Source: an uncultured Bacteroidia bacterium
GTDB taxonomy: Bacteria; Bacteroidota; Bacteroidia; Bacteroidales; F082
Assembly: GCA_902769875.1 (NCBI GenBank)
Contig: CACXQV010000016.1
Span: 1-44,277 of the forward strand
Direction of reading: 5' to 3'
Length of the DNA: 44,277 nucleotides
Shown: positions 2,258 through 42,123 of the stretch, one piece after another
Position numbering within the stretch: position 1 is the first letter of the stretch
How the letters are laid out: each line of letters begins with the position of its first letter
Translations under genes and position numbers: made by a program
Notes under the pieces: generated by a model
What the model was told of the DNA's origin: nothing
The model's database searches: none
Seen by the model: only the letters and a program-made list of their open reading frames with translations

Positions 2258-2284
2258 TTGAACAAATTGATTGTTTTGCCACCT

Positions 2285-3853: not shown

Positions 3854-5088
3854 ACGACCTCGCCAAACCCCTTGACCTCGCCTACGAAGCCGGTTCCATA
3901 CTTTTGGAAAACGGCGCGGAGATTTCGCGCGTGGAGGAGACCATGCGGCGCATCGCTACCCATTATGGCGTGGAGGACGAGAGTTTCTTTGTGCTCAGCA
4001 ACGGCATTATGGCCACGGGCAAAGACTACGCCCGCTCGAAGTTCATCCCCATCAAGGGGGCGAGTCTTGATAAAGTTGTGGCCGTCAACCAACTGTCACG
4101 CGAGGTGGAGCATGGGCAATGCTCCTTAAAGCAATTGGAGCAACGACTCAAAGCCATACGCGCTATGAAAGCCAAACCCACTTGGGAGCAGATTCTGGCT
4201 TCGGCCGTGGGCAGTGCGGCTTTCTGTATTATTTTTGGTGGCGGCTTCATGGATTGCATCGCATCATTCATTGCAGGTATGATGCTGTGGGTCTTTATGC
4301 TTTTCGTGGCATCGAAACACTTGTCGCGCATTGTGGGCAACGTCACGGGAGGGCTGTTGGCCACTTTGCTTTGTTTCGGGATGTATCGCATCGGGCTCGG
4401 CAACCATTTGAGCAACATGATTATCGGAGCCATCATCCCTTTGATTCCCGGCGTGCCTTTCACCAACGGCATTCGTGATATGGCCAACGAGGACTACATC
4501 GCGGGCGTTACGCGCCTTTTGGATGCCATGCTGACCTTCTTCTGCATCGCTTTGGGTGTGGCTTTGTCCTTTATGTTCGATGAGAATGTGTTTGGCGAAA
4601 TGCCTGTCTTGGAGGGACTTGCCGCCGACCCACAGACTTCGGGCTTTGCCGTGCAACTCATCGCAGCCTTTTTGGGCACCGTGTCGTTTGCCTCACTCTT
4701 TGGCGTGCCGCGCAAGTATTATCTCGATGCTGGTTTTTGCGGGACGATGGGCTGGTTGCTCTATCTCGTCCTGACGCGCTATACCGCCATGTCGCCCGCC
4801 GAAGTCCTTTTCTGCGCCACAGCTTTAGTGACTTTGACCGCCTTGCTGCAATCGTCGGGGCGGAAGTGCCCTATCACCGTGTTTCTCATCTGCGGCATTT
4901 TCCCCTTGGTGCCGGGCGCGGGCATCTTCTGGACGAGTTACAACATCGTTTCCAACCAACTTCAAGAGGCGTTGCAAACGGGTTTTGGAGCGCTGAAGGC
5001 CACCGTAGCCATTGCTTTCGGCATCCTTGCCGTGATGGAACTCAACGGAAAGGGCAGGATAGGAAAGTGGATAAAAATGAGGAAGTAA
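3850..5088 (+). CDS. ThrE-type threonine/serine exporter, both halves fused
   Basis: This is a 412-residue inner-membrane protein. The N-terminal half is the ThrE (DUF1212) domain: LAYEAGSILLENGAEISRVE, ESFFVLSNGIMAT, then several hydrophobic helices with IPLIPGVPFTNGIRD. The C-terminal half is the ThrE_2 (DUF3815) domain, with GVPRKYYLDAGFCGTMGWLLY and GIFPLVPGAGIFW. In many bacteria these halves are separate genes; here they are one polypeptide. Corynebacterium ThrE exports threonine and serine by proton-motive force; the substrate here is inferred. The ATG overlaps the TGA of the upstream regulator by 4 bp, indicating translational coupling. It converges on the DMT transporter gene 26 bp away, and no obvious hairpin lies between. 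Confidence 0.9.
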   Translation: MNDLAKPLDLAYEAGSILLENGAEISRVEETMRRIATHYGVEDESFFVLSNGIMATGKDYARSKFIPIKGASLDKVVAVNQLSREVEHGQCSLKQLEQRLKAIRAMKAKPTWEQILASAVGSAAFCIIFGGGFMDCIASFIAGMMLWVFMLFVASKHLSRIVGNVTGGLLATLLCFGMYRIGLGNHLSNMIIGAIIPLIPGVPFTNGIRDMANEDYIAGVTRLLDAMLTFFCIALGVALSFMFDENVFGEMPVLEGLAADPQTSGFAVQLIAAFLGTVSFASLFGVPRKYYLDAGFCGTMGWLLYLVLTRYTAMSPAEVLFCATALVTLTALLQSSGRKCPITVFLICGIFPLVPGAGIFWTSYNIVSNQLQEALQTGFGALKATVAIAFGILAVMELNGKGRIGKWIKMRK

Positions 5089-5114: not shown

Positions 5115-6056
5115 TTATTTGACATGTGTTCGCGATTTGCCCTCCTTATCAATATTCAACATTACAATCGCAAACAGCATCACCGCTGCGGCCACCCATT
5201 GCACGGGTGAATACACCGTCTTGTTGACAAAATAGTCGAGCACCACAGCCGTGATGGGATACATCAACTCAAGGAAGGTGGAGAGTGAGGCTTTCACATT
5301 GCGCAAGCCATAGTAATATAGGAAGATAGCCCCAGAGCCCGTTGTCAAGCCGATGAGGGCGATGAAGAGCCAATTGCGGGGCGTCACTTGCGTGAAGTCG
5401 CCGATGTGACCCGTGAACAGCACAATGACGAGCATAATCAAAGTGGTGAAGCCATAGCGGAAAAACGTGGAGCTGACGAATGAATGATTCCCCAAAATCT
5501 TCTTTGAAAACACCGTTGAGCTGCCGAATGAGAATGCCGCCAGCAGCGAGAGCAAGGCTGCATAAACGGTGGTGATGCCCTCGGTGCTGAAGTCGGGGAG
5601 CGCCCAGCCGAAAGTGAGGAAATAGCCTCCTGCCAAAGCAATGGCAGCCCAAATCGCGAAATGCCTTTTGATTTGTTCTTTCAGGATGATACGCGCCAAA
5701 ACGATGGCAAAGACGGGTTGCAGCTTTTGGAGCAACACCACAACCGAAAGGCTGTTGAAGTGCAACAAAAACAGCGACTTGACGATGGCCAAAGTGCCTA
5801 ATGCGCCTCCGAAAAGCGCGATGAGGCTGAAATAGAGCAAGTCGGAGCGCGACATGGTCTTCAAATGGCGGTATTCCCTGAAGAAGAACAGGTTCATCAG
5901 CAAGAATGGGCAGAGGTGGATGATGAAGACCACGAAAACGGTGTTCAGGTTGTAGAGTTGAGGCGTGAGCAGAATGCCGTCCACCCCCCACAGCATGGCG
6001 GAAAACGCCACGGCTAAGGCGCCGATTGCCTTTGCATTTTGTTGGTTCTCTTTCAT
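5115..6056 (-). CDS. EamA-family (DMT) drug/metabolite transporter
   Basis: The 313-residue protein has about ten hydrophobic segments forming two EamA repeats. The first repeat includes AFSAMLWGVDGILLTPQ and VVLLQKLQPVFAIVLARIIL; the second includes AAFSFGSSTVFSKKILG and LSTFLELMYPITAVVLDYF. DMT exporters move amino acids, nucleosides or other metabolites across the inner membrane, and the substrate cannot be read from sequence. The start ATG overlaps the TGA of pnuC by 4 bp (ATGA), so the two are co-translated. The pairing with a vitamin-precursor channel makes a vitamin- or NAD-related substrate a fair guess, but only that. Confidence 0.85.
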   Translation of the reverse strand: MKENQQNAKAIGALAVAFSAMLWGVDGILLTPQLYNLNTVFVVFIIHLCPFLLMNLFFFREYRHLKTMSRSDLLYFSLIALFGGALGTLAIVKSLFLLHFNSLSVVVLLQKLQPVFAIVLARIILKEQIKRHFAIWAAIALAGGYFLTFGWALPDFSTEGITTVYAALLSLLAAFSFGSSTVFSKKILGNHSFVSSTFFRYGFTTLIMLVIVLFTGHIGDFTQVTPRNWLFIALIGLTTGSGAIFLYYYGLRNVKASLSTFLELMYPITAVVLDYFVNKTVYSPVQWVAAAVMLFAIVMLNIDKEGKSRTHVK

Positions 6057-6763
6057 TTCAGTAACTTGTCATTCGCGATTGCCTCCTTCTCCCATCTTAT
6101 GCACATAATGATGGAATTGACCAAATAAACTGCATACATCATCGTGATAGGGAAGTTGCCCGCTTTGATGTACATAAAGATGCTGACACAATTGATGGCA
6201 ATCCAAAGCCACCATTGTTCGCTGAACATCCTGACCATCAGTATCATGGCCACAACCTGCATCACGGCCTTGGCCGAGTCGGCGAAAGGCGCCAAGTCGT
6301 CGGTGAAGTGTTTCATCAGGAGGCCGAAGCCGATGGTGCCGACGATGATGATAGCCAAATTGATGAGACGTGAACGGTTTGTCATGTGGATTTTCCTCAC
6401 CTCGTGGGTTTCGTGGTTCATGTTTTTCGACCAAGTGAAGAACCCTACAAACTGCATCACGAAGTTGTAGACCGTCACGCCAAAGTCGGCATAAAGTCTG
6501 GAAATCATTGTGATGTAAATCATCAGGCAGCAGTGGATAAAGCCGAAGAGATAGTTCGACAATTTGCCTTTGCCGCCAAGCACTACGTTGATGATGCCGC
6601 AGGCCGCCGCCACGATGTGGATCCAATAGAAACGGTCGCTCTTGTCGTATTTGAAGAGGATTGACATCACCGTGATGACGATGCTCACCGTCAATAGCCA
6701 GATAATGTCGAAAGGCTTCCATCCTTTCAGTTCTTCTTTGAGCAAGTTGTTGATTTTCTGCAT
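6053..6763 (-). CDS. pnuC: PnuC-family nicotinamide riboside (or related vitamin) transporter
   Basis: The 236-residue protein has about seven hydrophobic segments typical of PnuC, a SWEET-like facilitator whose cargo is trapped by phosphorylation inside the cell. Recognisable parts are GIINVVLGGKGKLSNYLFGF, VTVYNFVMQFVGFFTWSKNM and SEQWWLWIAINCVSIFMYIK (the W-rich segment conserved in PnuC). The longer open frame starts further out, but MQKINNLLKEEL at 6763 gives a normal N-terminus and lies 31 nt downstream of a -7 box. PnuC paralogues can carry thiamine (PnuT) or riboflavin instead; no TPP or FMN riboswitch was seen upstream. It is first gene of a pnuC-DMT operon. Confidence 0.88.
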   Translation of the reverse strand: MQKINNLLKEELKGWKPFDIIWLLTVSIVITVMSILFKYDKSDRFYWIHIVAAACGIINVVLGGKGKLSNYLFGFIHCCLMIYITMISRLYADFGVTVYNFVMQFVGFFTWSKNMNHETHEVRKIHMTNRSRLINLAIIIVGTIGFGLLMKHFTDDLAPFADSAKAVMQVVAMILMVRMFSEQWWLWIAINCVSIFMYIKAGNFPITMMYAVYLVNSIIMCIRWEKEAIANDKLLK

Positions 6764-11079: not shown

Positions 11080-13036
11080 GAATTGTGTCTAAATTTGGTT
11101 TCAGGTCGTTGAAAATCATTCTCCTGTTGTAATCGGCCAACACCGCGTAAAGTTTGGCGAAAATGTCGGGGCATTGCAGCAGGTCAATCAGGTTGTCGCT
11201 CATCAGCGGGTCGAGGAGGGGCTTGTAGATGCCGAAGGGGTTCTGCCCGTCCGACTGCACCAAGTAGGTTCCGTCGCAATATTGGTAGGTGAGGTTGAAA
11301 AAGCTGAAGAAGGCGGGTTCGCTCAGTGTGTCGAACAGGTTGCGGCCATACGAGAGCAGGGTGTCGTTCACCTGCAATGCGGCAAGAATCGATGGCCCAA
11401 GGTCGACTTGTTGGGCGATTTCCTCGCAGCGTTGTGGCTCGATGCGTTTGGGCCAGTAGAAGGCGATGGGGATGGAATACATTCCCCAGATGTTGCTGTA
11501 TTCGGGTTGGAAATGTTGGGTGTTTGAGTAGTCGGAGGTGATGACGAACAGGGTGTTGCCGAACCAATGCATCGTGGCGGCCTCGGCGAAAAAGTTGCGT
11601 AGGGCGCAGTCCTCGTAGTAGACGGTCTTTTCGAAACCGGTCCAGAAATAGCTTTCTTCGGGCAGTTCGAAGTCGTTGGGCACCTTATACGGATAGCGCG
11701 AAGATAGGGTGTAGATGGTGGTGGCGAAAGGCTGATGCACGCGGTTGAGGGTGTGGGCGGCATAATCAAGGAAAGGCCCGTCGTAGATGCCCCACTGCCC
11801 GTCGTAGTCGGTGTCGTCGTCATATTCCACCCGTCCGAAGTAGTTCCTGAATCCGGCGCGGCGGGCAAATTGCCCGAAACCCATAGTGCCATTGTTGCCG
11901 CCGTGCATGAAGATGGTGTTGTAATCCTTTTTCTGCAAGTGTTGCGCGAAGGCATCGAAGTCGTTGTCGGCATAGTCTGACCTCATGAAGTCGTTTTCCA
12001 TCAGCGACGGGATGCCGGCAAGAATGGAAGGCAACACTTCAAGGCTTCGGCGACTGTTTGACATTCCGTTGAAAGTGAGGCTGTTGGAGAATAAGCTGTC
12101 CAAGAATGGGGTGAGCGAATAACGCCTGTTTGGATTGTAGTAGCCTATCATCTCTTGCCCGATGCTTTTCATGATGATGACCACCACATTGCTCGGAAGC
12201 GTGTCGGCAACCAAACTGTCATTGACGAGGAAACGGTTGGCAATCAGGTCAGTATGGATTGGAGAATAAGCAACGTCGGGCACTTCATCCCTTAGTTCCA
12301 ATTTCGTGTCGTGGCTGTTGATCAGGCAAAACGGCGTGTTGAGCAGGATGGGGGCGTTTTGGGGGTCGGTGTATTCCATTGCGGTCTTCATCGTGATGCG
12401 CTGCGATTGGAACCCGCCGCGCCATGCAATGCTTGCAACAATGAGCATCACTGCCAAGCTGATGCCTTGTCGTGCATACCAACGCCTTGCCTCTTCCTTT
12501 TCTTTCCTATGCAGTTGGGTGTGGCTTGTCACCACGTTGATAACCAGCACAAATAGCACGAAAATCACCAGCAGGTACCAATAATCGAAGAACACCTGCC
12601 TGATGATGGCGAAAGAGATTTCCTCGGAGTTGCTGAGCACTTTGATGAAGTCAATGGTGAGATGCTTGCCGAAGAAGTTGAAGCATACGATGTCGATGAA
12701 ATTCAGTAGGATGGCAAACGAATTGAGGAAAACATAAAGGATGTCGATGAACGCTTGCGCGGTTTTGTTGTAAATCCTATATGAGGGGAAGCAGTAGTAT
12801 ATGATGACGGGCAGGTTGATGGCGACCACCACGGGCAAGTCGAAGCGCATGCCATAAAAATAAAGGCTTGAGGCTTGGCCGAGGCTCAGCTGGTGGAAAA
12901 ACTGCAAGTTGAACAAATAGAGCATCCAACGGCTGATGCTGAGGGTCAGCATAATGGCCAGCAGTCTGTAGATCAGCAGCATATAGGGCTGACCTAACCA
13001 TTCGTTGAGGAGCTCTTTTCTGGTGTGGCGTCGCAT
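11063..13036 (-). CDS. LtaS/alkaline-phosphatase-superfamily membrane protein with degenerate active site
   Basis: The 657-residue protein starts with about five membrane helices (residues 20-210) and ends in a sulfatase/phosphoglycerol-transferase domain (about 283-620). The fold landmarks are clear: NVVVIIMKSIGQEMIGYYN, SNSRRSLEVLPSILAGIPS, IFMHGGNNGTMGFGQFARRA, TLSSRYPYKVP, LFVITSDYSN. However, the residues that normally coordinate the metal or substrate appear replaced: K290 where the family has Glu (ES.G), R447 where SSHxPF has His, and Y503 where the ADH motif has His; D502 and S331 remain. The family consensus is from memory. Catalysis is therefore doubtful and a structural or regulatory role is possible. 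ATG 13036 was chosen because a -7 box lies just upstream, inside the longer open frame. Confidence 0.85.
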   Translation of the reverse strand: MRRHTRKELLNEWLGQPYMLLIYRLLAIMLTLSISRWMLYLFNLQFFHQLSLGQASSLYFYGMRFDLPVVVAINLPVIIYYCFPSYRIYNKTAQAFIDILYVFLNSFAILLNFIDIVCFNFFGKHLTIDFIKVLSNSEEISFAIIRQVFFDYWYLLVIFVLFVLVINVVTSHTQLHRKEKEEARRWYARQGISLAVMLIVASIAWRGGFQSQRITMKTAMEYTDPQNAPILLNTPFCLINSHDTKLELRDEVPDVAYSPIHTDLIANRFLVNDSLVADTLPSNVVVIIMKSIGQEMIGYYNPNRRYSLTPFLDSLFSNSLTFNGMSNSRRSLEVLPSILAGIPSLMENDFMRSDYADNDFDAFAQHLQKKDYNTIFMHGGNNGTMGFGQFARRAGFRNYFGRVEYDDDTDYDGQWGIYDGPFLDYAAHTLNRVHQPFATTIYTLSSRYPYKVPNDFELPEESYFWTGFEKTVYYEDCALRNFFAEAATMHWFGNTLFVITSDYSNTQHFQPEYSNIWGMYSIPIAFYWPKRIEPQRCEEIAQQVDLGPSILAALQVNDTLLSYGRNLFDTLSEPAFFSFFNLTYQYCDGTYLVQSDGQNPFGIYKPLLDPLMSDNLIDLLQCPDIFAKLYAVLADYNRRMIFNDLKPNLDTIHETQE

Positions 13037-13056
13037 ATATTCTTCCTTAATCGTGG

Positions 13057-28664: not shown

Positions 28665-31600
28665 TTATTCCTTTATGAACTTCAAATCGTATGTCTCATT
28701 GATTCTCACAAGGTAAACTCCAGCATTCAAATCGCTGACGTTGAGGGCTTCATTGTAGCTTAACTTGGCGGTCTTGACAAGCCGTCCCGTGGTGCTGAAG
28801 ATTTGGATTTCGTTCTCGCCATCCAATCCTTCGATGCGGATTTGGTCGTTGGCGGGATTGGGGAAGAGGCTGATTTTGGCAAGGTAGCTGTCGTTGATGC
28901 CGGTTTGGTCGAAGAAGGCGGCCAAAACGATGTCTTGGTTCACGACGATGTCGCGCGAGTTTTCGGTGACGCCGTCGCTCCATTTGACGAACATATAGCC
29001 GTCGGCTGGGATGGCGGCAAGTGTGGCCGTCGCACCGGCGGTGTAGGTGCCTGCACCAAGTACAAATCCTTGGTTTTCATCGCAATAAACGGTAACGGTA
29101 TAGGTCGGGACGGGCTCTTGCGAAAAGTAAGCCACATATTCGGCGTTTTGGGTCACGACGATGGAGCGCGGGTTGTCGGCGTTGCCGTCGTGCCAACCCG
29201 AGAAATAGAAACCGTTGCTGGGAATCGCGCCAATGTTGACTGCTGTTCCGGCGGGATAGGTGCCGCTGCCGTAAGTGGAGCCCGTGAAAGGACTTTCGGG
29301 CTTTACCGTGATGGTATAGGTCTCGACTCTCGAGAAGATGGCCTTGTAAGTCGTATCGGCAGTGACCACCACAGTGCGTGGGTTGTCGGTGTTGCCGTCG
29401 TGCCAACCTTCGAATATGGCACCGCTCACAGGCACTGCGCTGATTTCGATGCTCGTGTTTTCAGGATAAGTGCCACTGCCTGTAACAGTGCCCAATTCAG
29501 GGTCGTTGGGCAGTACGGTGATGGTGTATTCTGGCGTACCGATGAGGTAGAAAAGGGCCTTGTAGTGAGCGTTTTGGGTCACGGTCACGTTGCGTGGGTT
29601 AGTCATTATGCCATCGTGCCAACTGATGAACATATAACCCTCGTTGGGGTCGGCTTTCAATGAGGCTGTGGCGCCATAGTCGTAAATGCCTGCACCTCTC
29701 ACCGTGCCGCCTTCTTCGGGGTCGGCCTCTGTAGTGATTTCGTATTGCACTGCATTGAAAAGAGCGGTGTAGGTTGCGTCGCCTTCCACTAAGACGATGC
29801 GCGGGTTGGTGATGTTGCCGTCGTCCCACCTGTCGAAAACGAAGCCTTGGTTGTTGTGGACGGTGAGGCGGATGGTCTCGCCGTAGTTGTACACGCCTCC
29901 GCCGTCAATGGTGCCTGCGCCGGCAGGACTGACCTCGGCCCTGATTTCACATTGCCTGATGTCGAAAAGTGCAGTGTAAGTCGCGTCACCGGTGACGATG
30001 ATTTCACGCGGGTTGTTGGTGTTGCCGTCGTGCCATTTGATGAAGGCAAAACCGAGATGGGCCGTGGCCGAAATCTGGATGGTGTCGCCAAAATAATAGG
30101 TGCCGCCGCCGGTCACGCTGCCCCAAGCTGGGTGGTCACTTTCGACTGTAATAGTGAATTGGCGGATGCCAAACGAGGCAATGAAAGTGCTGTCTTGCGT
30201 GACCACAACATTGTGCGGATTGTCGGTGACGCTGTCGTTCCACATCAGGAACTCGTGGCCTACATTGGGGATGGCCTCAATGGTGGCGGTGTCGCCATAA
30301 TGATATTCACCGCCGCCGATGACGGTGCCCCAATCGGGGTTGTCGGATTCGAGGGTGAGAGTGAATGTCGGTTGAGGTGGGGCAGGCTTCACGACGAGGC
30401 CGGTGATGATGATGAACTCTTCGGGCTGATACAGGACTTCGCCGTCTTTATAAACCGTTTGTGCATCAGTATAATAAACTCCGCTCTCGTTGACGACCAA
30501 ATTGCTGATTCCAGAAAGTTCGGGCAAGGCGTATAAAACCTCTCCGTCTTGCCAAATGCAAACCGTTGAGTCTGTCAGGGAAATCCCTGTCCAATAAAGG
30601 CTGCCGTCAAATGCCGCGATTTGCCCGAAGTTGGCGTTTTCCATTTGGTAGATGATGGAGTCGTTTTGCCAGATGACACCGTAGGAAAGGGAATCGTTTG
30701 CAACCTTGAACCCCGCCGCATAGAGGTTTCCACCGTCAAAGCAGATGTTTTCGACGCTCGAAACGGTATCTTCCATCCAAAGGAGCGAGTCGTTTTTCCA
30801 AACGCTGGCATACGTAAGGTATTCGCCAGAGAGGTAGATTGCACCGCCTGTATAAATGTCGCCCGTCGTTGTGTCAACGGCCAAACTGTGAATGTGGCAC
30901 TCATCGTCTTCGTGGATGTAGGAATAAAGGAGCTCGCCGTTTTGCCATACGTTGTTGCCGCCAGCCACTGTCCAATTGTTGCCGTTGAGGGCGATATGGT
31001 CGAAAAAGGTGTTGGTGTCGGCTGTGAATATGCACGAGTCGTTCATCCAAACGCGACCGCGATTATCTGAGCTATTGTAGGCATATCCGGCTCCGTAAAT
31101 TGTACCGTCTTCCGCTACTTGGATGCCTTTCAACTGAATATCGATGCTGTCGGTGATGCTGTATAACAGCGTGTTGTTTTTCAAGACTTTGCCCGTAGTA
31201 AAATGGTTGCCCGAGATATAAACATCTTGGGGTTGCGGTTCGTCCCAGTTGAAATAGGTCTTCACCATCCAATCGCCTGTCGAAAACCAAATTTGATCCC
31301 ATTGGGTTCCGTTCCATGCCCATATTCCGTTGCCGCTTGGGTCGATGTCGCCGCAAACGCCCATGTGCCAAGGTGACAATGGCTGCTCGGCTTGCCAGAC
31401 TATCCAAATGGTTTCGTCTCCAGTAACCCAAATGGGGGTGGAAAGGTCGAACTCAGCCCAATCATTGAGGCCTTGGGGGACATCACAACTCATTGTATAT
31501 GCAATCAAACCCTCCGAAGGGGTTTCGCCGCCCAAGTAGATGGAACAGGTGTAAATGCCTCCAATTGAATTGTTTGGGCCGTCACTGAATATGCCCACTT

Positions 31601-31799
31601 TTGTGATTTGCGTACCAGCAAAGTTGCTGGCCATATCGGGAGGATAACAAATCGCGACGGTGGTGTGTGTCCCGTAACTGATGGCCTCGTTGAATTCGCT
31701 TGCGCAATAGGTGTGCCAGCCGTGCATCGGCTCGTTTTGTGCAAAGGCGGCTCCCAAGCACATTATTAATAAGGTAAGGAGTGAAGCTATCTTTTTCAT
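28665..31799 (-). CDS. Large T9SS surface protein with seven InlB-B-type repeats
   Basis: The 1044-residue protein has a signal peptide (MKKIASLLTLLIMCLGAAFA), an N-terminal beta-sandwich region (to about 200), and a propeller-like middle (about 205-470) with repeated short units such as NDSCIFTAD, NGELLYSYI and WQNDSIIYQ. Then come seven repeats of about 68-70 residues of the divergent InlB B-repeat type; each has GTVxGxGxYxxGxxxxIxAxP, then FxxWxDGxTxNPRxxxVTxDxxYxAxF. A T9SS tail (LFPNPANDQIRIEGL, IFSTTGRLVKTAKL, LNAGVYLVRI) follows. It is a likely surface adhesin or matrix protein with unknown ligand. ATG 31799 starts the signal peptide; the longer frame has no support. A minus-strand TAACTTTG box precedes it. 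Confidence 0.88.
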   Translation of the reverse strand: MKKIASLLTLLIMCLGAAFAQNEPMHGWHTYCASEFNEAISYGTHTTVAICYPPDMASNFAGTQITKVGIFSDGPNNSIGGIYTCSIYLGGETPSEGLIAYTMSCDVPQGLNDWAEFDLSTPIWVTGDETIWIVWQAEQPLSPWHMGVCGDIDPSGNGIWAWNGTQWDQIWFSTGDWMVKTYFNWDEPQPQDVYISGNHFTTGKVLKNNTLLYSITDSIDIQLKGIQVAEDGTIYGAGYAYNSSDNRGRVWMNDSCIFTADTNTFFDHIALNGNNWTVAGGNNVWQNGELLYSYIHEDDECHIHSLAVDTTTGDIYTGGAIYLSGEYLTYASVWKNDSLLWMEDTVSSVENICFDGGNLYAAGFKVANDSLSYGVIWQNDSIIYQMENANFGQIAAFDGSLYWTGISLTDSTVCIWQDGEVLYALPELSGISNLVVNESGVYYTDAQTVYKDGEVLYQPEEFIIITGLVVKPAPPQPTFTLTLESDNPDWGTVIGGGEYHYGDTATIEAIPNVGHEFLMWNDSVTDNPHNVVVTQDSTFIASFGIRQFTITVESDHPAWGSVTGGGTYYFGDTIQISATAHLGFAFIKWHDGNTNNPREIIVTGDATYTALFDIRQCEIRAEVSPAGAGTIDGGGVYNYGETIRLTVHNNQGFVFDRWDDGNITNPRIVLVEGDATYTALFNAVQYEITTEADPEEGGTVRGAGIYDYGATASLKADPNEGYMFISWHDGIMTNPRNVTVTQNAHYKALFYLIGTPEYTITVLPNDPELGTVTGSGTYPENTSIEISAVPVSGAIFEGWHDGNTDNPRTVVVTADTTYKAIFSRVETYTITVKPESPFTGSTYGSGTYPAGTAVNIGAIPSNGFYFSGWHDGNADNPRSIVVTQNAEYVAYFSQEPVPTYTVTVYCDENQGFVLGAGTYTAGATATLAAIPADGYMFVKWSDGVTENSRDIVVNQDIVLAAFFDQTGINDSYLAKISLFPNPANDQIRIEGLDGENEIQIFSTTGRLVKTAKLSYNEALNVSDLNAGVYLVRINETYDLKFIKE
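28953..30380 (-). repeat. Seven tandem coding repeats of about 204-213 bp
   Basis: The in-gene repeats are diverged at DNA level but keep identical cores on the minus strand such as TGGCACGACGGCAAC (WHDGN), recurring at 29186, 29393 and 30025. They are recombination-prone within one gene. Confidence 0.75.
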
Positions 31800-31822
31800 A
31801 TTTGTAGGTTTCGTTTGGGGGG

Positions 31823-31830
31823 CAAAGTTA
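31823..31830 (-). promoter_or_regulatory. -7 box for the large T9SS repeat protein
   Basis: The minus strand reads TAACTTTG (TAnnTTTG), 23 nt before ATG 31799. Confidence 0.5.
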
Positions 31831-31873
31831 CAAACTTTTTCTTGTTTTGCGCGTAACCGAAAAGAAAAACCCC

Positions 31874-31881
31874 TATCTTTG
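31874..31881 (+). promoter_or_regulatory. -7 box driving the cobalamin riboswitch operon
   Basis: TATCTTTG lies about 10 nt before the first conserved riboswitch bases, leaving the whole aptamer in the transcript. Confidence 0.7.
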
Positions 31882-31887
31882 CCGCCG

Positions 31888-32060
31888 ATAAGCGGTGCCG
31901 CGAGGCTCAATAGGGAATCGGGTGAGAATCCCGTACAGTTCCCGCTGCTGTAAACTCTCCAAGCTGGCCATTATGCCACTGAAAACCAACCATTTTCGGG
32001 AAGGCGGACAGACAAAGGGAGTGAGTCAGAAGACCTGCCGCCTGTCAGTGAAACGATGCT
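31888..32060 (+). ncRNA. Cobalamin (B12) riboswitch
   Basis: The class I/II aptamer landmarks appear in order: GCGGTGCC; GGGAATCGGGTGAGAATCCC; ACAGTTCCCGCTGCTGTAA; GCCACTG; GGGAAGGC; and the B12 box GAGTCAGAAGACCTGCC (32022-32039). CGCCTG (32039-32044) can pair with CAGGCG (32074-32079), a possible expression-platform switch. Bound adenosylcobalamin should repress the three surface genes downstream, as for B12 uptake loci in Bacteroides. The leader to the first ATG is about 280 nt; it holds no other gene. Confidence 0.95.
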
Positions 32061-35445: not shown

Positions 35446-35460
35446 TTGATATTCTTTTGA

Positions 35461-35519
35461 GGGGATGGCAAATCCCCAACTTAGTTCGGGCGGATTGCAA
35501 AATCCGCCTGAACTTTTTT
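35461..35519 (+). terminator. Terminator closing the cobalamin operon
   Basis: There are two hairpins in series. A small one is GGGGAT/ATCCCC (35461-35477). The main one is a 14-bp stem, AGTTCGGGCGGATT with AATCCGCCTGAACT, around GCAA, ending in T6 (35483-35519). This marks the end of native operon transcription just before the R-M genes. Confidence 0.93.
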
Positions 35520-35563
35520 GCGTCAAAATTTCCCAAACCATTTCGTAAAGCAGAAAAAAAGCG

Positions 35564-35571
35564 TACTTTTG
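35564..35571 (+). promoter_or_regulatory. -7 box for the EcoRI-like R-M operon
   Basis: TACTTTTG (TAnnTTTG) ends 16 nt before ATG 35588, showing the R-M genes are adapted to Bacteroidota transcription. Confidence 0.6.
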
Positions 35572-35587
35572 CAGAAATGTTACCAAA

Positions 35588-36421
35588 ATGGCAAAAAAGA
35601 ATCAATCGAAGCGATTAACGGCACAGCAAAAAGAGAGTCACGGTGTTGTTGGCATATTTGGAAAAGAGGCCAAGTTGCATGATATGACCGTGGGAGAAAT
35701 ATCCCACCATGTCATTAAACAACTTGAGGAAGATTATCCACAACTTACTTTCCGCTATAGGTCAAGTATCGAGAAGATGGAAATTAACGAGGCACTTAAA
35801 AAGATTGATTCTGAATTGGGACAAACGCTTTTTGTTGAAAATGCAAGCATTATTCCAGATGGCGGAATCATTGAGGTAATAGACGACAATGATAATTGGA
35901 GAGTTGTTTTAGTATCGGAGGCGAAGCATCAAGGGAAGGACATCGAGAATATCAAAAAAGGAGAACTTGTTGGCAAAAACAAAAACCAAGACCTCATTTT
36001 GGCTGGCAATGCCATAGAGCGGTCGCATAAAAACATTTCCGAGATAGCCAATTTCATGTTGGCGGAATCGCATTTCCCATACGTCCTTTTTCTTGAAGGC
36101 TCTAATTTCTTGACAGAAACCATCAAAGTCACAAGACCTGATGGAAGAGTTGTAACGCTTGAATATAACTCAAGTATGCTCAATCGGTTGGACAGATTGA
36201 CGGCGGCGAATTATGGGATGCCCATTAATGCCAACCTGTGCAAGAACAAGTTCGTGAAGCACGGCGACAAAAGTATAATGCTTCAAGCGGCTTCAATTTA
36301 TACACAAGGCAATGGCGAAAGTTGGGATGCGAAAAAGATGTTCGACATCATGCTGGAGATTTCCAAAACGTCGCTTCAAGTATTGGGCAGTGATTTGTTC
36401 AAACAATTGACAAAGAAGTAA
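35588..36421 (+). CDS. EcoRI-type restriction endonuclease (predicted GAATTC)
   Basis: The 277-residue protein is the same length as EcoRI, and the catalytic residues fall at EcoRI numbers: P90-D91 in IIPDGGIIEV and E111-A112-K113 in LVSEAKHQGKD. The recognition residues do too: N141, E144 and R145 in GNAIERSHKN, and R200 and R203 in MLNRLDRLTAANYGMP. Long runs such as ERSHKNISEIANFML match EcoRI as I remember it. It should cut G/AATTC as a dimer. Its stop is 4 nt before the methyltransferase start, the same R-then-M order as plasmid EcoRI. Base composition is much more AT-rich than the flanks, suggesting acquisition. No controller (C) gene was found. Confidence 0.97.
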   Translation: MAKKNQSKRLTAQQKESHGVVGIFGKEAKLHDMTVGEISHHVIKQLEEDYPQLTFRYRSSIEKMEINEALKKIDSELGQTLFVENASIIPDGGIIEVIDDNDNWRVVLVSEAKHQGKDIENIKKGELVGKNKNQDLILAGNAIERSHKNISEIANFMLAESHFPYVLFLEGSNFLTETIKVTRPDGRVVTLEYNSSMLNRLDRLTAANYGMPINANLCKNKFVKHGDKSIMLQAASIYTQGNGESWDAKKMFDIMLEISKTSLQVLGSDLFKQLTKK

Positions 36422-36425
36422 GACT

Positions 36426-37412
36426 ATGGCACGACAGGCGACAAATCAACTACTTCAAAAAGCGAAAAAGTCAAAAAGTGATGAGTTTTACACACAACTT
36501 TGCGACATTGAGCGCGAATTGCAATACTACCAAGACAGTTTTGCCGACAAAGTGGTTTACTGCAATTGCGACGACCCTCGCACAAGCAATTTTTTCAGAT
36601 ATTTTGCGACAAACTTCCACAAATTGGGACTGAAAAAGTTGATAGCATCATGTTATGTTGAGGATACATACGATTTATTCAATATTCAGGACTCAGAAAA
36701 GGGATTCTATTGTGAATATAATGGTGAAAGTGGCATCCAGTTCAATCCGAGCGATGTAGAAATAGAATATTTCAGAGGAAATGGCGACTTTAGAAGCCTT
36801 GAATGTATTGAGTTTCTGAAACAATCGGATATTGTGGTAACCAATCCGCCATTTTCCTTGTTCAGGGAGTTTGTGGCCCAAATCGTGAAATACGACAAGC
36901 AGTTTTTGATCATCGGCAATGTGAACGCTATTACCTATAAAGAAATATTCGATTTGATTCAGAAAGATAAAGTTTGGTTGGGTGTCAATTTGGGTCGAGG
37001 AATTTCGGGCTTTATCATACCAGAACACTACGATTTGTATGGTACTGAAATTAGTGTAAATAGCGAAGGCCAAACCATTATTGCCACAAATAACTGTCTA
37101 TGGCTCACTAATTTGGAATTGAAGCAACGCAATGAGGAGCTTGATTTGTCAAAAGAGTATGCTGGCAATGAAAGTGAATATCCAAAGTATGATAATTGTG
37201 ACGGCATCAATGTGGACAAGACACAAGATATTCCAAGGGATTATGATGGCTTGATGGGAGTTCCGATTACGTTTCTTCACAAGTATAATCCTGACCAGTT
37301 TGAAATTGTCAAATTCCGGAAGGGTGACGATGGGAAGGATTTGAGTGTTAATGGTAAGTGTCCTTATTTTAGGATTTTGATAAAGAATCGAAGGGTAAAT
37401 GTGGCTGGATAG
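36426..37412 (+). CDS. EcoRI-type adenine-N6 DNA methyltransferase
   Basis: The 328-residue enzyme closely follows M.EcoRI (326 residues): MARQATNQLLQKAKKSKSDE, DKVVYCNCDDPRTSNFF, GLKKLIASCYVE, SDIVVTNPPFSLFREF with the catalytic NPPF at 140-143, GVNLGRGISGFIIPEHYDLY, and MGVPITFLHKYNPDQFE. It should methylate the second A of GAATTC (GA-m6A-TTC), protecting the host. It lies 4 nt after the R gene. It ends 65 nt before the three-gene system, whose own -7 box follows. One C-terminal stretch, KGDDGKDLSVNGKCPYFRIL, is near-identical to M.EcoRI from memory. Confidence 0.97.
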   Translation: MARQATNQLLQKAKKSKSDEFYTQLCDIERELQYYQDSFADKVVYCNCDDPRTSNFFRYFATNFHKLGLKKLIASCYVEDTYDLFNIQDSEKGFYCEYNGESGIQFNPSDVEIEYFRGNGDFRSLECIEFLKQSDIVVTNPPFSLFREFVAQIVKYDKQFLIIGNVNAITYKEIFDLIQKDKVWLGVNLGRGISGFIIPEHYDLYGTEISVNSEGQTIIATNNCLWLTNLELKQRNEELDLSKEYAGNESEYPKYDNCDGINVDKTQDIPRDYDGLMGVPITFLHKYNPDQFEIVKFRKGDDGKDLSVNGKCPYFRILIKNRRVNVAG

Positions 37413-37422
37413 AAAAATGTTG

Positions 37423-37430
37423 TATATTTG
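37423..37430 (+). promoter_or_regulatory. -7 box for the STAS/GHKL-PRTase-phosphoesterase operon
   Basis: TATATTTG (TAnnTTTG) lies 47 nt before ATG 37478 and just after the methyltransferase stop. Confidence 0.55.
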
Positions 37431-37477
37431 TGGCCTAATGAATCTGAAAAGCAAAAAACGAAATTACAATTATTAAA

Positions 37478-38668
37478 ATGATAGAAGACAATATTATCCA
37501 ATATGACGATGAGGCTAAGAAAATCTATTTCGCAGGAAATATTACCTCTTTCGTGTTCTATAATCAACTTTTTAAAGCACTTAGAGAACACTACAAACAA
37601 AATGGAGTTGCGGTTGCTCCTATTTTCTCTTTTATTAATGTAAAGCGATTTGATTCTTTGGTCATCCCAAATCTAATTAGTTTGGGGTTTATTTTGAAAA
37701 GTATTCATAGTAAACCTACGCTTTTAGAAATACCAAACATATTGGAATCAGCAAGTAGAGAAGCCATTAAGTTTTTGGATAATGGATGGTTTTTTAGGGC
37801 TGTTGGCCGCCCCAATAGATTTAGCGAAGAGATAGGTATAGATCAGAAACGATATACGATAATACAAGAAACAGGTTATGAAATATATGATTTTGAGCCC
37901 AAAATGTTGGGTTTTTACGATGTTAATGTGTCATATAATCCAGATCACAGGGTATGTGTTTATAAAGATGAATCATATTCGTATTATAGCAAATTCGTTC
38001 AGGAAAGTGTTTCGGAAGAGGAACTTGGAATAATTCGTTCAGAAAAATATCGAGATTTAAAGCCGATTATTGCGAAAAGATACTGGAATGTTCTTAAAGT
38101 ACTGAATGATAACAATAAAGGTGTTGTATTAGATATTTTAACAGAGATAATTACAAATTCCGTTCTGTATAGTGGTTCGCGTTGTTCTGCGATGTTACAG
38201 ACAAAAGATAACGAAACAAAAATATCAATATCTGATTATGGTGTTGGATTTGAGTATTCTTTTGAGAAAAGGCAAGAAAAATTCGGGGGAGAATATAAAA
38301 ATGTATTTAATGAGTTTAGCACAGACGAACAAGAAAAGTACAAGAATTTCATATACATATTTGAAACTTTGTACTATTCGAAAATAAAAAGCGTTGCAAG
38401 AGATAATTTATTTACATTGCTAGAGATTGTATTAAGAAAGAATGATATTTTTGGTATTGATGAAGGAACAATAAGAATTCATTATAATGACACGCAAGTT
38501 ATAATGACATCAAAAAGGTGCAGTAGATGCAATAAATTTAATCCAAAGAACTGCGCAAAATGTTTGTTGAGTAATTACAATCCATCAAAAGAGGCCTCAA
38601 AATCAAATTTGCGATTTTATGATAGTACATTTAGGGGCGTGCATATTGAAGTTGAACTTAAATTTTAA
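37478..38668 (+). CDS. Gene A: STAS-like + GHKL ATPase + zinc-knuckle protein
   Basis: The 396-residue protein is not a member of any system I can name. Residues 1-90 look STAS-like (KKIYFAGNITSFVFYNQLF, SFINVKRFDSLVIPNLISLG). About residues 215-300 form a GHKL (histidine-kinase/MutL/Hsp90) ATP-binding domain, with E223 and N227 in the N-box LTEIITNSVLYS and D253-x-G255-x-G257 in ISDYGVGFEYS. Near the end C348-x2-C351-x7-C359-x2-C362 can bind zinc. There is no histidine phosphoacceptor helix and no membrane segment, so it is soluble and resembles an anti-sigma-type kinase/antagonist in one chain. Gene B starts 4 nt after its stop. Very AT-rich. A switch or sensor ATPase is inferred. Confidence 0.75.
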   Translation: MIEDNIIQYDDEAKKIYFAGNITSFVFYNQLFKALREHYKQNGVAVAPIFSFINVKRFDSLVIPNLISLGFILKSIHSKPTLLEIPNILESASREAIKFLDNGWFFRAVGRPNRFSEEIGIDQKRYTIIQETGYEIYDFEPKMLGFYDVNVSYNPDHRVCVYKDESYSYYSKFVQESVSEEELGIIRSEKYRDLKPIIAKRYWNVLKVLNDNNKGVVLDILTEIITNSVLYSGSRCSAMLQTKDNETKISISDYGVGFEYSFEKRQEKFGGEYKNVFNEFSTDEQEKYKNFIYIFETLYYSKIKSVARDNLFTLLEIVLRKNDIFGIDEGTIRIHYNDTQVIMTSKRCSRCNKFNPKNCAKCLLSNYNPSKEASKSNLRFYDSTFRGVHIEVELKF

Positions 38669-38672
38669 GACA

Positions 38673-39797
38673 ATGCTATTCGCTAAATTAGAAATAGACG
38701 AAACATTATATGTGTTTCTGCATGCAGAACAGGTTTATCGTGATTTTAGTCGTTGTGATAAAGATTTAGGATGTTTCAGGAATGATGTTTTGGAGCATTC
38801 TGATAATGATATATTGGAGCATTCTGATAATGATATATTGGAGCATTCTGATAATGATATATTGGAGCATTCTAGTTATACTATTACTGAAAGCACTATG
38901 CGCGATATTTATAAATATATTGAGGGAAACGCGACGCCTGTTAATATTATTATTGACTGTGCGGAGATAAAAAACGCCATAAATATTGCGGGATGGATTA
39001 AAAAAATCATCAAACACTGCAAGGAAAACGGCAGGAACTTGTCGTTTTGTCGCATGGGTGATACATTATATGGAAAATCAAGAATGCGTGAGAGAATGCA
39101 TGAGAAGACATTGGAAGAACAACCCAATGATGACAAAACATGCAATGTTTTTATTTCTGGAAGCAAGAAAAAAAATATTACTGATACCGAAATATTTGAA
39201 ATATATCAACAAGAAATAGCAAAGAGAATAAAATCAAACTATATAATTGAAAGAAAGGAAGGTGAAGAGAGTTATAGTCATTCCAGCAATGTTCAATTGC
39301 CGATATATATTAATATAAAAGCATTTATCGAACAAAAAGATTTTTCATTTTTAGGTTTGTATTTGCTATGCAAACAAGCAATTCGCGAAGAGTTTATTGA
39401 GTATGGTAAACATCCACTTCTGTTTTTTAGTTCGATGGCGGGGGCGTATTTGGCTTCCGTCTTTTCAAAACTGGCTTGCATTGATATGGTCTTTCTTAAC
39501 CATTTAGGTCCAAAGAAAAAACTTTATCGAGAACTCCATAAAGAGCAATTGTTGGCGGATAGAGATTATTTAATCATATCCGATGTGGTTTGTTTAGGTG
39601 CCGAAATTGAACGAGCAAAAACATTAATTGAACATGCTGGCGGCAAATTAAAAGGGATATTATCGGTTGTATATGTGGAGGTCGTTTCAGAACGCCCTAA
39701 AACAGAGAATGAGATTAAAAAAGTTGCCTTGCTGACTCTTACAAAGGATTATAATCCTATTGATTATCAAATAATAACCGACTTTCCAAAAAAATAA
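38673..39797 (+). CDS. Gene B: STAS-like + phosphoribosyltransferase-like protein with minisatellite
   Basis: The 374-residue protein has a short N-terminal part interrupted by an eight-residue repeat (LEHSDNDI, residues 40-67) from a perfect 24-bp tandem repeat. It is followed by a STAS-like stretch (PVNIIIDCAEIKNAINIAGW then HCKENGRNLSFCRMG, about 87-125). The C-terminal part (about 245-345) resembles a type I PRTase: LLFFSSMAGAYLASVFSKL, then DYLIISDVVCLGAEIERAKT, with D304 in the PRPP-loop position, then EHAGGKLKGILSVVYVE. Only one acidic residue is in the loop (SDVVCLGAE) where enzymes usually have two, so it may bind nucleotide or PRPP without catalysis. ATG 38673 was chosen over the earlier overlapping start. 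Operon with A and C. Confidence 0.72.
   Translation: MLFAKLEIDETLYVFLHAEQVYRDFSRCDKDLGCFRNDVLEHSDNDILEHSDNDILEHSDNDILEHSSYTITESTMRDIYKYIEGNATPVNIIIDCAEIKNAINIAGWIKKIIKHCKENGRNLSFCRMGDTLYGKSRMRERMHEKTLEEQPNDDKTCNVFISGSKKKNITDTEIFEIYQQEIAKRIKSNYIIERKEGEESYSHSSNVQLPIYINIKAFIEQKDFSFLGLYLLCKQAIREEFIEYGKHPLLFFSSMAGAYLASVFSKLACIDMVFLNHLGPKKKLYRELHKEQLLADRDYLIISDVVCLGAEIERAKTLIEHAGGKLKGILSVVYVEVVSERPKTENEIKKVALLTLTKDYNPIDYQIITDFPKK
38790..38873 (+). repeat. Perfect 24-bp in-frame minisatellite in gene B
   Basis: There are three identical 24-bp units (38790-38813, 38814-38837, 38838-38861; each begins TTGGAGCATTCTGATAATGA) plus a half unit to 38873. Perfect identity implies recent expansion; 24 bp keeps the frame. 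Confidence 0.98.
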
Positions 39798-39809
39798 AAC
39801 TAATTTCCA

Positions 39810-41483
39810 ATGAGCATAAACATATTACATATTTCGGATTTGCATTTCGGCACAAAGAAAAATGAAGATAAAACACGCTACAGCAAGAATTTTGTAAAAG
39901 AATTTATTGGGGAGTTTTCGAATACACAGATTGATTATCTGATTGTTAGTGGTGATATTTCAAATGAATCCAAAAAAATGGAATACGATGAAGCCTCTGA
40001 ATTTTTGAATAAGGTTGTAACAGACTTGAAAATTCCTAAGCGAAAAGTTCTTATTTGTATGGGAAACCATGATATTTCATGGAGAATACTTGAAGATATT
40101 GAAGACGAAGGAGGAACTGACTTATACAAAAGAAAGGAAAAGTATACGAATTTTGAAAAGTTCTATAATGACTTTTATAATGAAGAAGGCCGTCGGTTTA
40201 AGACAGATTCTATATTTGTTGAAATCCCGGACGATTCTCAACAAATATTGTTTTTGGGCGTGAATACTTGTTATAAAGAAAGTAATCACAAAGAAGACCA
40301 TTATGGCTGTATTGATAAATCAAGTTTTGAGACATATTTATATAACATGAATTCAAAATACAAGGGGTATGTGAAATGTTTGGTGATGCATCATAATCCG
40401 ATGGATTTGGCAGATGAAGAACATAACTTTAAAAATTGGAGAGAAATTGACCATAGTGGGCTTGGTTATCCTTTTGTTGTGTTTTGTGGGCATATTCACA
40501 GCTCAGATGGAGAAAGTCAAGTTTTCAGTGATGATGATGATGCAATACATTATATTTCTGTTGGTAGTTTGCTTCAAAGTTCTACCATTGGAAGATATAA
40601 TTTATATACCATAAACGAAGATTCAACAAAGTTAGAAATTAAGTATTTCAATTATGAAGAAAGAACTGCCGCTAATAAACATTATTGGCAGCCGCAAGAT
40701 AAAACTAAAGCAATTAAATCTGTCTGTCTTAGGAAACCAGTACAGAAAAATAATGCATGGAATGATTTAGCGTCTGATGATAGTAAAAGAATAGAACAAA
40801 ATCTTGATAGCCAAACAAAAAAAGGTTCAGGTAAGCCTAATATCATAAAGCCAGCAAAAAGTATTCTTGATGAAATAAAAGACAATCAATTGTATTATTC
40901 TGGGCACTTCCATTGGGATACTGATGGAAATGGAGAAAATAGCAAATTTAGATCTCATGGTTATATTGACATCAACTATCTTGTATCTCATATTGAATCT
41001 TTGGAAACAATAACCCAATTGTTTAAAGAAAAGATTAATGAGATTCAAGAGAAAACAAAACTCGATAAAACAATAATGGTTTCGATAGGTTTGGAATGTA
41101 GTGTTATAGGTGCAAGATTGTCCGTGTTGTTTCCTGAATTTGGTTACAGTTATATTCCACGAAAACATAAAGCAAACGATCACATTGATATTGAGAATGA
41201 AATCGGTTTTTCTGATTATAATACAGTAGTTCTAATAAAAGACATTACATTTGATGCAGATGAGTCTATTGAAATAATAGAAAAGAGATTTAAAAACAAA
41301 AGTATTCATTTGATTTCGTTATTTTACTGTGGAAAGAAGGACAAAAAGAAAGAGATTCTTAGTGGCATTGAGAATGCTCGTTTTTATTCACTTATTGACG
41401 ATATTGAAATTCCTCGATGTGAAGTGTCAGAATCGGATTGTCCTATAATCAAGAATAATTTACAAACAATTTATAGATGCTAA
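39810..41483 (+). CDS. Gene C: calcineurin-like phosphoesterase fused to a PRTase-like domain
   Basis: The 557-residue protein starts with a complete metallophosphoesterase: D10-L-H12 in ISDLHFG, D49 in VSGDISNE, G85-N86-H87-D88, the H195 region in LVMHHNPMD, and G227-H-I-H230 in FCGHIHS, so both metal sites are intact. A charged linker (about 300-350) leads to a C-terminal domain (about 355-557) with TIMVSIGLECSVIGARLSVL and NTVVLIKDITFDADESIEII (D478), the PRTase core strand and PRPP-loop pattern seen also in gene B. Soluble, no signal. It starts 12 nt after gene B. Phosphoesterase action on a nucleotide or nucleic acid, sensed or supplied by the PRTase-like domains, is inference only. Confidence 0.78.
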   Translation: MSINILHISDLHFGTKKNEDKTRYSKNFVKEFIGEFSNTQIDYLIVSGDISNESKKMEYDEASEFLNKVVTDLKIPKRKVLICMGNHDISWRILEDIEDEGGTDLYKRKEKYTNFEKFYNDFYNEEGRRFKTDSIFVEIPDDSQQILFLGVNTCYKESNHKEDHYGCIDKSSFETYLYNMNSKYKGYVKCLVMHHNPMDLADEEHNFKNWREIDHSGLGYPFVVFCGHIHSSDGESQVFSDDDDAIHYISVGSLLQSSTIGRYNLYTINEDSTKLEIKYFNYEERTAANKHYWQPQDKTKAIKSVCLRKPVQKNNAWNDLASDDSKRIEQNLDSQTKKGSGKPNIIKPAKSILDEIKDNQLYYSGHFHWDTDGNGENSKFRSHGYIDINYLVSHIESLETITQLFKEKINEIQEKTKLDKTIMVSIGLECSVIGARLSVLFPEFGYSYIPRKHKANDHIDIENEIGFSDYNTVVLIKDITFDADESIEIIEKRFKNKSIHLISLFYCGKKDKKKEILSGIENARFYSLIDDIEIPRCEVSESDCPIIKNNLQTIYRC

Positions 41484-41493
41484 TTGATTTATT

Positions 41494-42120
41494 ATGAGAG
41501 CAATAAAACCTTATTTTATCATCGAATCGCACATAGATGGCGATTACATTTTAAAACAGATTGAATTGGCGGGTCGTACAGCATACAAAAGCGAAGACAA
41601 AATTACTCCCGATTCGGCACAGGATTTTGTCAAAATGATAAGTGGTCGTGGACATTTGTCCGTAATTGAGCATCAGTCTGTTACCGTGCGCATTATATGT
41701 GATAGAGGTGTTTCGCACGAAATTGTGAGACACCGCCTTGCAAGTTACACGCAGGAATCAACCCGTTATTGCAACTACACAAAGGGCAAGTTTGGCAGCG
41801 AGATTACCGTAATAGAACCTTGCTTTTGGGCTCCTGATGATGAAAAATATAAGATTTGGAAACAGACCATTGAACAGATTGAGGCAGGTTATAACAAGCT
41901 GATTGAACTTGGCGCAACACCTCAAGAGGCGAGAAGTGTTCTACCCAATTCGTTGAAAACGGAAATCGTGGTGACAATGAATCTGCGCGAATGGCGTCAT
42001 TTCTTCACATTGAGAACATCCCAGGCTGCACACCCACAAATGCGTGAAATAGCCATTCCTCTTTTGAAAGAGTTTCAAAAGTTGATACCAGTTGTGTTTG
42101 ATGATATTGAAGTTGAATAA
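41494..42120 (+). CDS. thyX: Flavin-dependent thymidylate synthase ThyX
   Basis: The 208-residue enzyme makes dTMP from dUMP with methylene-THF and FAD/NADPH. The ThyX motif RHR-x7-S is present as R79-H80-R81...S89 in IVRHRLASYTQESTRY, with the FAD and dUMP segments SGRGHLSVIEHQSVTVRIIC and VLPNSLKTEIVVTMNLREWR HFF. It starts 10 nt after gene C and stops 3 nt before the CWC gene, so it can be read from the same transcript. It may be a native gene at the island edge or part of the acquired cargo; its composition is intermediate between island and flank. Confidence 0.95.
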   Translation: MRAIKPYFIIESHIDGDYILKQIELAGRTAYKSEDKITPDSAQDFVKMISGRGHLSVIEHQSVTVRIICDRGVSHEIVRHRLASYTQESTRYCNYTKGKFGSEITVIEPCFWAPDDEKYKIWKQTIEQIEAGYNKLIELGATPQEARSVLPNSLKTEIVVTMNLREWRHFFTLRTSQAAHPQMREIAIPLLKEFQKLIPVVFDDIEVE

Positions 42121-42123
42121 TTT

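Follow-up and report, generated by a model that had tools for sequence, protein, structure and literature searches.

The window analysed here is a 44,277-nt stretch of DNA from an uncultured Bacteroidia bacterium (contig CACXQV010000016.1, assembly GCA_902769875.1). Within it lies a compact unit of four genes, termed A, B, C and thyX, the last starting 10 nt past C. The genes and the candidate promoter element ahead of them are as follows.

37478..38668, forward strand: gene A (396 aa), a STAS-like N-terminus (called by eye) and a GHKL (anti-sigma-kinase-like) domain
38673..39797, forward strand: gene B (374 aa), a STAS-like N-terminus (about residues 1–165) and a class I phosphoribosyltransferase (PRTase) fold (about 170–374)
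39810..41483, forward strand: gene C (557 aa), a calcineurin-type metallophosphoesterase (about 1–300) and an orotate phosphoribosyltransferase (OPRT)-like domain (about 350–557)
41494..42120, forward strand: thyX, a phage-type flavin adenine dinucleotide (FAD)-dependent thymidylate synthase (TIGR02170 match)
37423..37430, forward strand: TATATTTG, a candidate Bacteroidota-type -7 box, 55 nt upstream of A

A first-pass annotation of the sequence had proposed a three-gene system of open reading frames (ORFs) separated by 4 nt (A-B) and 12 nt (B-C), and the ORF coordinates bear out this packing. A, B and C proved to be real, intact and conserved, but the fourth gene, present in the branch to which the window belongs, had been overlooked. 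Relative to two related loci (L006 and L007, described below), the ratio of nonsynonymous to synonymous substitution rates (dN/dS) is 0.13–0.24 for A-C, which argues that their coding character is not due to chance, and 0.04–0.07 for ThyX; all four genes are therefore under purifying selection. The AT-rich stretch reported directly after a restriction–modification (R-M) system was likewise recovered, with G+C fractions of 0.31 (A), 0.33 (B), 0.31 (C) and 0.41 (thyX) against 0.50 outside the island that holds them, and an EcoRI-type pair upstream. The single promoter claimed ahead of A fared less well: TATATTTG fits TAnnTTTG, which we take to be the Bacteroidota-type -7 motif, and this motif occurs within 200 nt upstream in five of seven loci, but the evidence is weak because its position varies among loci and no chance expectation was computed.

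Relatives were sought with the A sequence in 295 genomes of the order, with an A profile in 393, in one further scan of genome contigs, and with B profiles in overlapping samples of 395 phylum genomes, 390 class genomes, 246 genomes from the order of G698 and four from the class of G408. With the window, the full-length relatives found through A or B make up seven A-B-C loci. The window, L004 (identical to L008; genome G262, same order), L006 and L007 (both labelled uncultured Bacteroidales) are referred to as close members, and L054 (G698, same class, other order), L130 (G873, from the genus of G698) and L055 (G408, same phylum, other class) as distant ones. Gene order is identical in 7/7 loci, and the spacing between genes lies between -14 and +12 nt (the start of B in L006 is ambiguous). 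Identity of A to the window declines from 76% (L006) and 69% (L007) to 42% (L004), 29% (L054) and 21% (L055), and the order A-B-C is held down to 20–22% identity. The anticipated conservation of the triplet in varied genomes is borne out in seven genomes of one phylum, drawn from the order of the window, another order of its class and another class.

A-B-C is rare among the Bacteroidota genomes sampled: the A profile found it in 2/393 order genomes, full or long B matches occurred in 3/395 phylum genomes, and the B profile found it in 1/390 class genomes. Apparently abundant homologues did not survive inspection. Among 38 genomes matched by A, only the window and G262 gave full-length matches; the other 36 were weak and confined to the GHKL region, and the 13 loci inspected, drawn from 12 other genomes plus a second contig of G262, resembled ordinary sensor kinases. 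The third match in the 295-genome search, G123, was without an A-like gene. For B, 15 genomes were matched, of which 11, in family f124, gave weak partial matches (three loci inspected, RadA-like by eye), and a match in G612 was short and lay in a frame containing a stop. Viral contigs gave no match with the A or B profiles, phages none with A or with B of L055, and plasmids none with A, B or A of L055; on these null searches, carriage of A-B-C by phages or plasmids was rejected. Plasmids searched with C of L054 returned metallophosphoesterase matches in five records, and E. coli held no DNA nearly identical to A-B-C.

The unit lies within a discrete island, delimited by comparison with relatives in the same genus.

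35459..42122, no strand: genomic island with an empty site in two genus relatives; flank homology ends at 35458 and resumes at 42123
35588..36421, forward strand: EcoRI-family restriction endonuclease in the same island (Pfam PF02963, E 1.2e-150)
36426..37412, forward strand: EcoRI-family adenine methylase in the same island (Pfam PF13651, E 1.4e-133)

In the window, a YncE-like gene borders position 35458, and cysteine-rich CWC-like and BtuF-like genes lie to the right of 42123 (names assigned by eye). In G349 and G201 the YncE-like gene runs directly into the CWC-like and BtuF-like genes. Because these two genomes are without 35459–42122, the R-M pair and A-B-C-ThyX, which are its only content, constitute one island, and the match of its flanks to G349 and G201 argues for assignment of the contig to the genus. 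The other genus members searched, G286 and G101, possess a more distant YncE-like copy, with no CWC or BtuF matches in the 6 kb taken from each. Elsewhere in the window, positions 28665–31910 encode a long protein of surface type in which a unit is repeated.

Three motifs of protein A were mapped.

38144..38158, forward strand: GHKL N-box of A, E223 to N227, with E and N identical in 7/7 loci
38234..38248, forward strand: GHKL G1 box of A, D253-x-G255-x-G257, identical in 7/7 loci
38519..38563, forward strand: zinc-knuckle-like CxxC...CxxC insert of A, confined to the four close members and lacking in the distant three

The GHKL boxes reported as intact are thus conserved throughout. Profile similarity is modest: A matches Pfam HATPase_c at E 0.025, below the cut-off, and the A profile matches GHKL kinases with a best E of 0.011 (SpoIIAB, E 0.2). 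Comparison of A with B by hhalign was unproductive.

Protein B combines its STAS-like N-terminus with a PRTase fold supported by fold and profile comparison. A low-confidence model of the N-terminus has a strand and helix order that fits STAS by eye; the list of fold matches was filled by PRTase rows, and the absence of STAS rows there is uninformative.

38781..38873, forward strand: 24-nt in-frame tandem repeat of 3.9 copies (DNDILEHS) in the N-terminal part of B, lacking in the other alignment rows
39567..39605, forward strand: degenerate phosphoribosyl pyrophosphate (PRPP) loop of B, YLIISDVVCLGAE, retaining D, G and the last E in 7/7 loci and lacking the first acidic residue in 7/7

The repeat may vary in copy number. 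A functional PRTase possesses a PRPP loop with two acidic residues and T-x-G-x-T. Both acids are present in none of the seven B proteins and in one of seven C proteins (L004, ED); 6/7 C proteins lack the first acidic residue and in 4/7 the loop glycine is out of register (three positions on in L007), so the loops depart from the functional motif. The annotated PRPP-loop-like motifs of B and C therefore stand as parts of supported PRTase folds but are degenerate, and look unfit for ordinary PRTase catalysis. Because of this degeneracy, the suggestion that these domains make a ribonucleotide is less likely than that they bind one.

The metal site of C is better preserved. Ligands D10, H12, D49, H87, D88, H195 and H230 are kept in 7/7 loci, and the calcineurin-type set (DxH, GD, GN(D)HD, H, GxxH) is complete in all seven apart from N86, which is D in two loci, and H228, which is N or D in three; the claim of intact metal motifs was well founded. 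The nearest curated family is DS9_1 of NCBIfam (E 5.4e-24, scoring 84.9 bits where the equivalog cut-off is 420), and C of L004 matches DS9_1 at E 2.9e-28 and DS8 at E 1.2e-16. Fold comparison of C matched a YydB model (Z 23.6), GpdQ (18.6), Rv0805 (18.3) and SMPDL3A (17.9). PRTase and phosphoesterase folds were obtained for B and C, in line with part of what the annotation had anticipated. The C-terminus is OPRT-like, with a pyrE match at E 1.8e-8 on L054, and contains a further motif.

41160..41183, forward strand: RKHKANDH of C, resembling the OPRT flexible catalytic loop, with RK..DH also in L006 and L007

The C-termini of B and C resemble PyrE, the orotate phosphoribosyltransferase, in fold and partial motifs, and differ from it in their degenerate PRPP loops and in being fused to a STAS-like or metallophosphoesterase domain. 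These halves are also the better conserved. Between the window and L007, identity is 71% for the PRTase half of B and 61% for the OPRT half of C, compared with 39% for the B N-terminus and 34% for the C phosphoesterase; for L006 the values are 78 and 78% versus 57 and 68%. Such a pattern is as expected if the two halves form a shared core.

ThyX scores 136.7 bits against a TIGR02170 cut-off of 87.9. It lies directly past C in all four close members, at 2–10 nt (in L004 perhaps a 4-nt overlap, depending on the start codon), and no thyX follows C in the three distant loci. Its position within the island and next after C in every close member led to rejection of the view that it is an unrelated flanking gene. 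ThyX was found in two of 247 order genomes, the window and G160, and the G160 protein is distant, matching the profile of operon ThyX at only E 1.9e-5. The genomes of L004, L006 and L007 (G262, G782 and G783) also carry ThyA, and none was found in the window genome, G000, a bin that is 83% complete. Among the distant hosts, G698 has ThyA with no ThyX found; in G408 no ThyA was found, and one 516-aa frame elsewhere contains two ThyX-domain matches.

By sequence, the ThyX of the operon clusters with phage enzymes. Viral contigs (IMG/VR) yielded 49 loci with ThyX relatives, eight at 81–87% identity, and the two inspected were phage-like by eye (L070, with a terminase, and L069, with a RecT-like gene); the best ThyX in GenBank phages is 65% identical. 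A tree of 44 rows, which left out cellular ThyX from outside operons, united the four operon copies and six viral rows in one 10-row clade (support 100/98), within which the copy of L004 branches apart from the remaining nine. On this tree the labels have to change twice and 0/200 bootstrap trees need only one change, though the starred branches alone are compatible with one origin. Synonymous divergence (dS) to L007 is 0.57 for ThyX versus 1.3–2.0 for A-C, consistent with a history partly of its own; for L006 the values are 0.99 versus 1.02–1.45, not clearly lower. None of the 49 viral loci has A, B or C in the surrounding DNA taken, which spans up to 6 kb per side. In two viral contigs, L074 and L075, the ThyX frame (6037–6636) is broken by one or more in-frame stops, and stop-codon recoding is possible there.

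Neighbouring genes were compared with PADLOC for 20 hand-chosen flanking proteins of L006, L007, L054 and L055, and with Pfam for the window. At least one PADLOC match at E 0.001 was obtained for 13/20 proteins, and defence-type genes adjoin all five loci scanned of the seven, with L004 and L130 outside the scan; the predicted proximity to defence genes holds to this extent. Directly upstream of A in the window is the EcoRI R-M pair. L006 neighbours match REase-NACHT-like PDC-S73 (E 2e-135) and AAA PDC-M29A (7e-57); those of L007 match TIR-TM (1e-24), AbiH (1e-6) and PDC-S49 (7e-147); and those of L054 match HamA (2e-142) and Septu-like PDC-M01A/B (2e-194, 4e-138). In L055, A-B-C lies between type I-B Cas8b (3e-101) and Cas6b (4e-56) genes and a weakly E1-like protein (E1-E2 match, 6e-7), at 1790–4436 and 11886–13055. 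A 414-aa gene of L055 (4678–5922), between C and cas6, has no Pfam or PADLOC match, and L130 contains integrase-like and conjugative-element-like genes by eye.

Scans of PADLOC, NCBIfam, Pfam and PHROGs did not find the A-B-C(-ThyX) combination, and the open-licence papers searched gave no description of it, in agreement with the initial judgement that it is not a recognised named system. Identity with a system already described was also rejected, as library scans gave domain-level matches for C and weak or none for A and B. In layout, the operon resembles VapKSC (CapK/CapS), which comprises a STAS-GHKL kinase, a STAS-bearing partner and an effector and frequently lies next to R-M or further defence genes. 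As described there, VapK is proposed to phosphorylate the VapS STAS antitoxin, freeing a PIN toxin; the operon shields E. coli from one phage and is linked with single-stranded DNA activation; 88/443 capKS pairs are immediately downstream of R-M; and VapS and CapS need an absolutely conserved Ser/Thr on the second STAS helix (PMC13373217, EMBO J 2026). In contrast, B has a PRTase fold and no conserved STAS Ser/Thr was found in it, C is a phosphoesterase–OPRT fusion rather than a VapC-like PIN nuclease, and ThyX is added in one branch. A-B-C may thus operate as VapKSC does while not belonging to that system. The layout is already known from VapKSC, and what appears new by comparison is the effector type and the phage-type accessory ThyX.

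Similarity to other systems is at the level of domains. The C N-terminus resembles the DS-9A metallophosphatase, whose catalytic residues are described as needed for phage defence and whose partner is a HAD phosphatase, whereas C is adjoined by A, B and ThyX; DS-8, likewise matched by C of L004, is described as pairing its metallophosphatase with NACHT (PMC13092281). C scores far under the DS-9 and DS-8 curated cut-offs (420 and 790 bits). Validated anti-phage systems from the DefensePredictor work are described as including thymidylate synthase and PRTase domains, compared here by description rather than sequence, and the thymidylate synthase is listed in a legend together with a deoxynucleoside monophosphate (dNMP) kinase and a 5-hydroxymethyldeoxyuridine (5hmdU) DNA kinase, so the presence of a thymidylate enzyme in a defence system has precedent; a term search of the main text found no mention of GHKL or STAS (PMC13092281).

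Overall, the conserved four-gene unit of the window's branch is probably a conflict system of the kinase–partner–effector kind. To the full reading, that A-B-C is a horizontally variable and most likely anti-phage operon of sensor kinase, adaptor and effector with the following mechanism and ThyX role, we assign a probability of roughly 0.5. A would sense an infection- or damage-linked signal and spend ATP to switch B, which would keep C inactive, probably by pairing of its PRTase domain with the OPRT-like domain of C. Such pairing is proposed because PRTases commonly dimerise. Once freed, the C metallophosphoesterase would hydrolyse a nucleotide or nucleic-acid substrate and halt growth. ThyX, added in one branch, probably keeps or restores the supply of thymidylate (dTMP) while the effector acts; its candidate roles are dTMP replenishment during C action, insulation from the effects of phage ThyX, or setting a pyrimidine level read by the OPRT-like domains. 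The observation behind the first-pass annotation is confirmed and its interpretation partly supported: the STAS/kinase-type switch gating C has a precedent in VapKSC (PMC13373217), but the VapS phospho-acceptor has no clear counterpart in B, and the switch may therefore use another residue or an ATPase-driven change.

Several observations weigh against this reading. The STAS-like stretches reported in A and B are weak by sequence, called by eye in A and matching Pfam STAS in B at E 0.043, below the cut-off; a loose alignment of seven B sequences has no conserved Ser/Thr column at about residues 98–120, the STAS alpha-2 region; and A is likened to CapK/VapK by described layout, not by sequence. 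Models of B and C came from four-row alignments, with a mean predicted local distance difference test (pLDDT) score of 59 and 61. Aligned by hhalign, the B and C profiles fall in the expected register without significance (E 0.022, probability 2%), and the contrast between halves shrinks in L004 (32 and 33% versus 21 and 28%). In L130 (7859–9439), C of G873 stops about 75 residues short of its nearest relative, C of L054, inside the PRTase-like domain. The defence context is suggestive, since the flanks were hand-chosen with no random-locus control, and the window genome is a bin with 5.7% contamination in addition to its incompleteness.

Alternatively, the PRTase-like domains, the phosphoesterase and ThyX could make or trim a modified pyrimidine nucleotide, as signal or DNA precursor, under regulation by A. 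The OPRT-like C-terminus, with its pyrE match and the RK..DH kept in three members, and the presence of a pyrimidine enzyme, ThyX, favour such a pathway, as does the precedent of Ter modules, described as pairing PRTases with HAD phosphoesterases (PMC7824862). Nonetheless, we consider it unlikely, given the degenerate PRPP loops and the three of seven loci without ThyX after C. Equally doubtful is a version of the switch in which C is an SbcD-like nuclease cutting phage or host DNA, because other phosphoesterases score higher in both the DS9_1 and fold comparisons.

That the island serves stress or metabolism with no phage role, travelling with R-M while ThyX just supplies thymidylate, would suit the failure to find ThyA in G000 and the strong purifying selection on ThyX; it is quite improbable, as three of the four ThyX-operon genomes own ThyA, G000 is incomplete, and the rare triplet is accompanied by varied defence-type genes. 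A more speculative elaboration, to which we give little weight, has ThyX setting the level of a pyrimidine nucleotide to which the OPRT-like domains of B and C bind; shifts in deoxyuridylate (dUMP) or dTMP caused by phages would then release C, and the host operon would have captured a phage ThyX, possibly twice, as a reference or reset arm. The notion of phage-driven shifts arises because viral contigs carry nearly the same ThyX.

If the conflict-operon reading is correct, the kinase–STAS–effector design described in 2026 would be extended beyond its PIN nuclease to an effector that joins a phosphoesterase with a nucleotide-enzyme fold, and a conflict operon would be tied to thymidylate synthesis through a phage-type ThyX. 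It could then be asked whether a defence operon monitors or safeguards the pool of pyrimidines on which phages draw.

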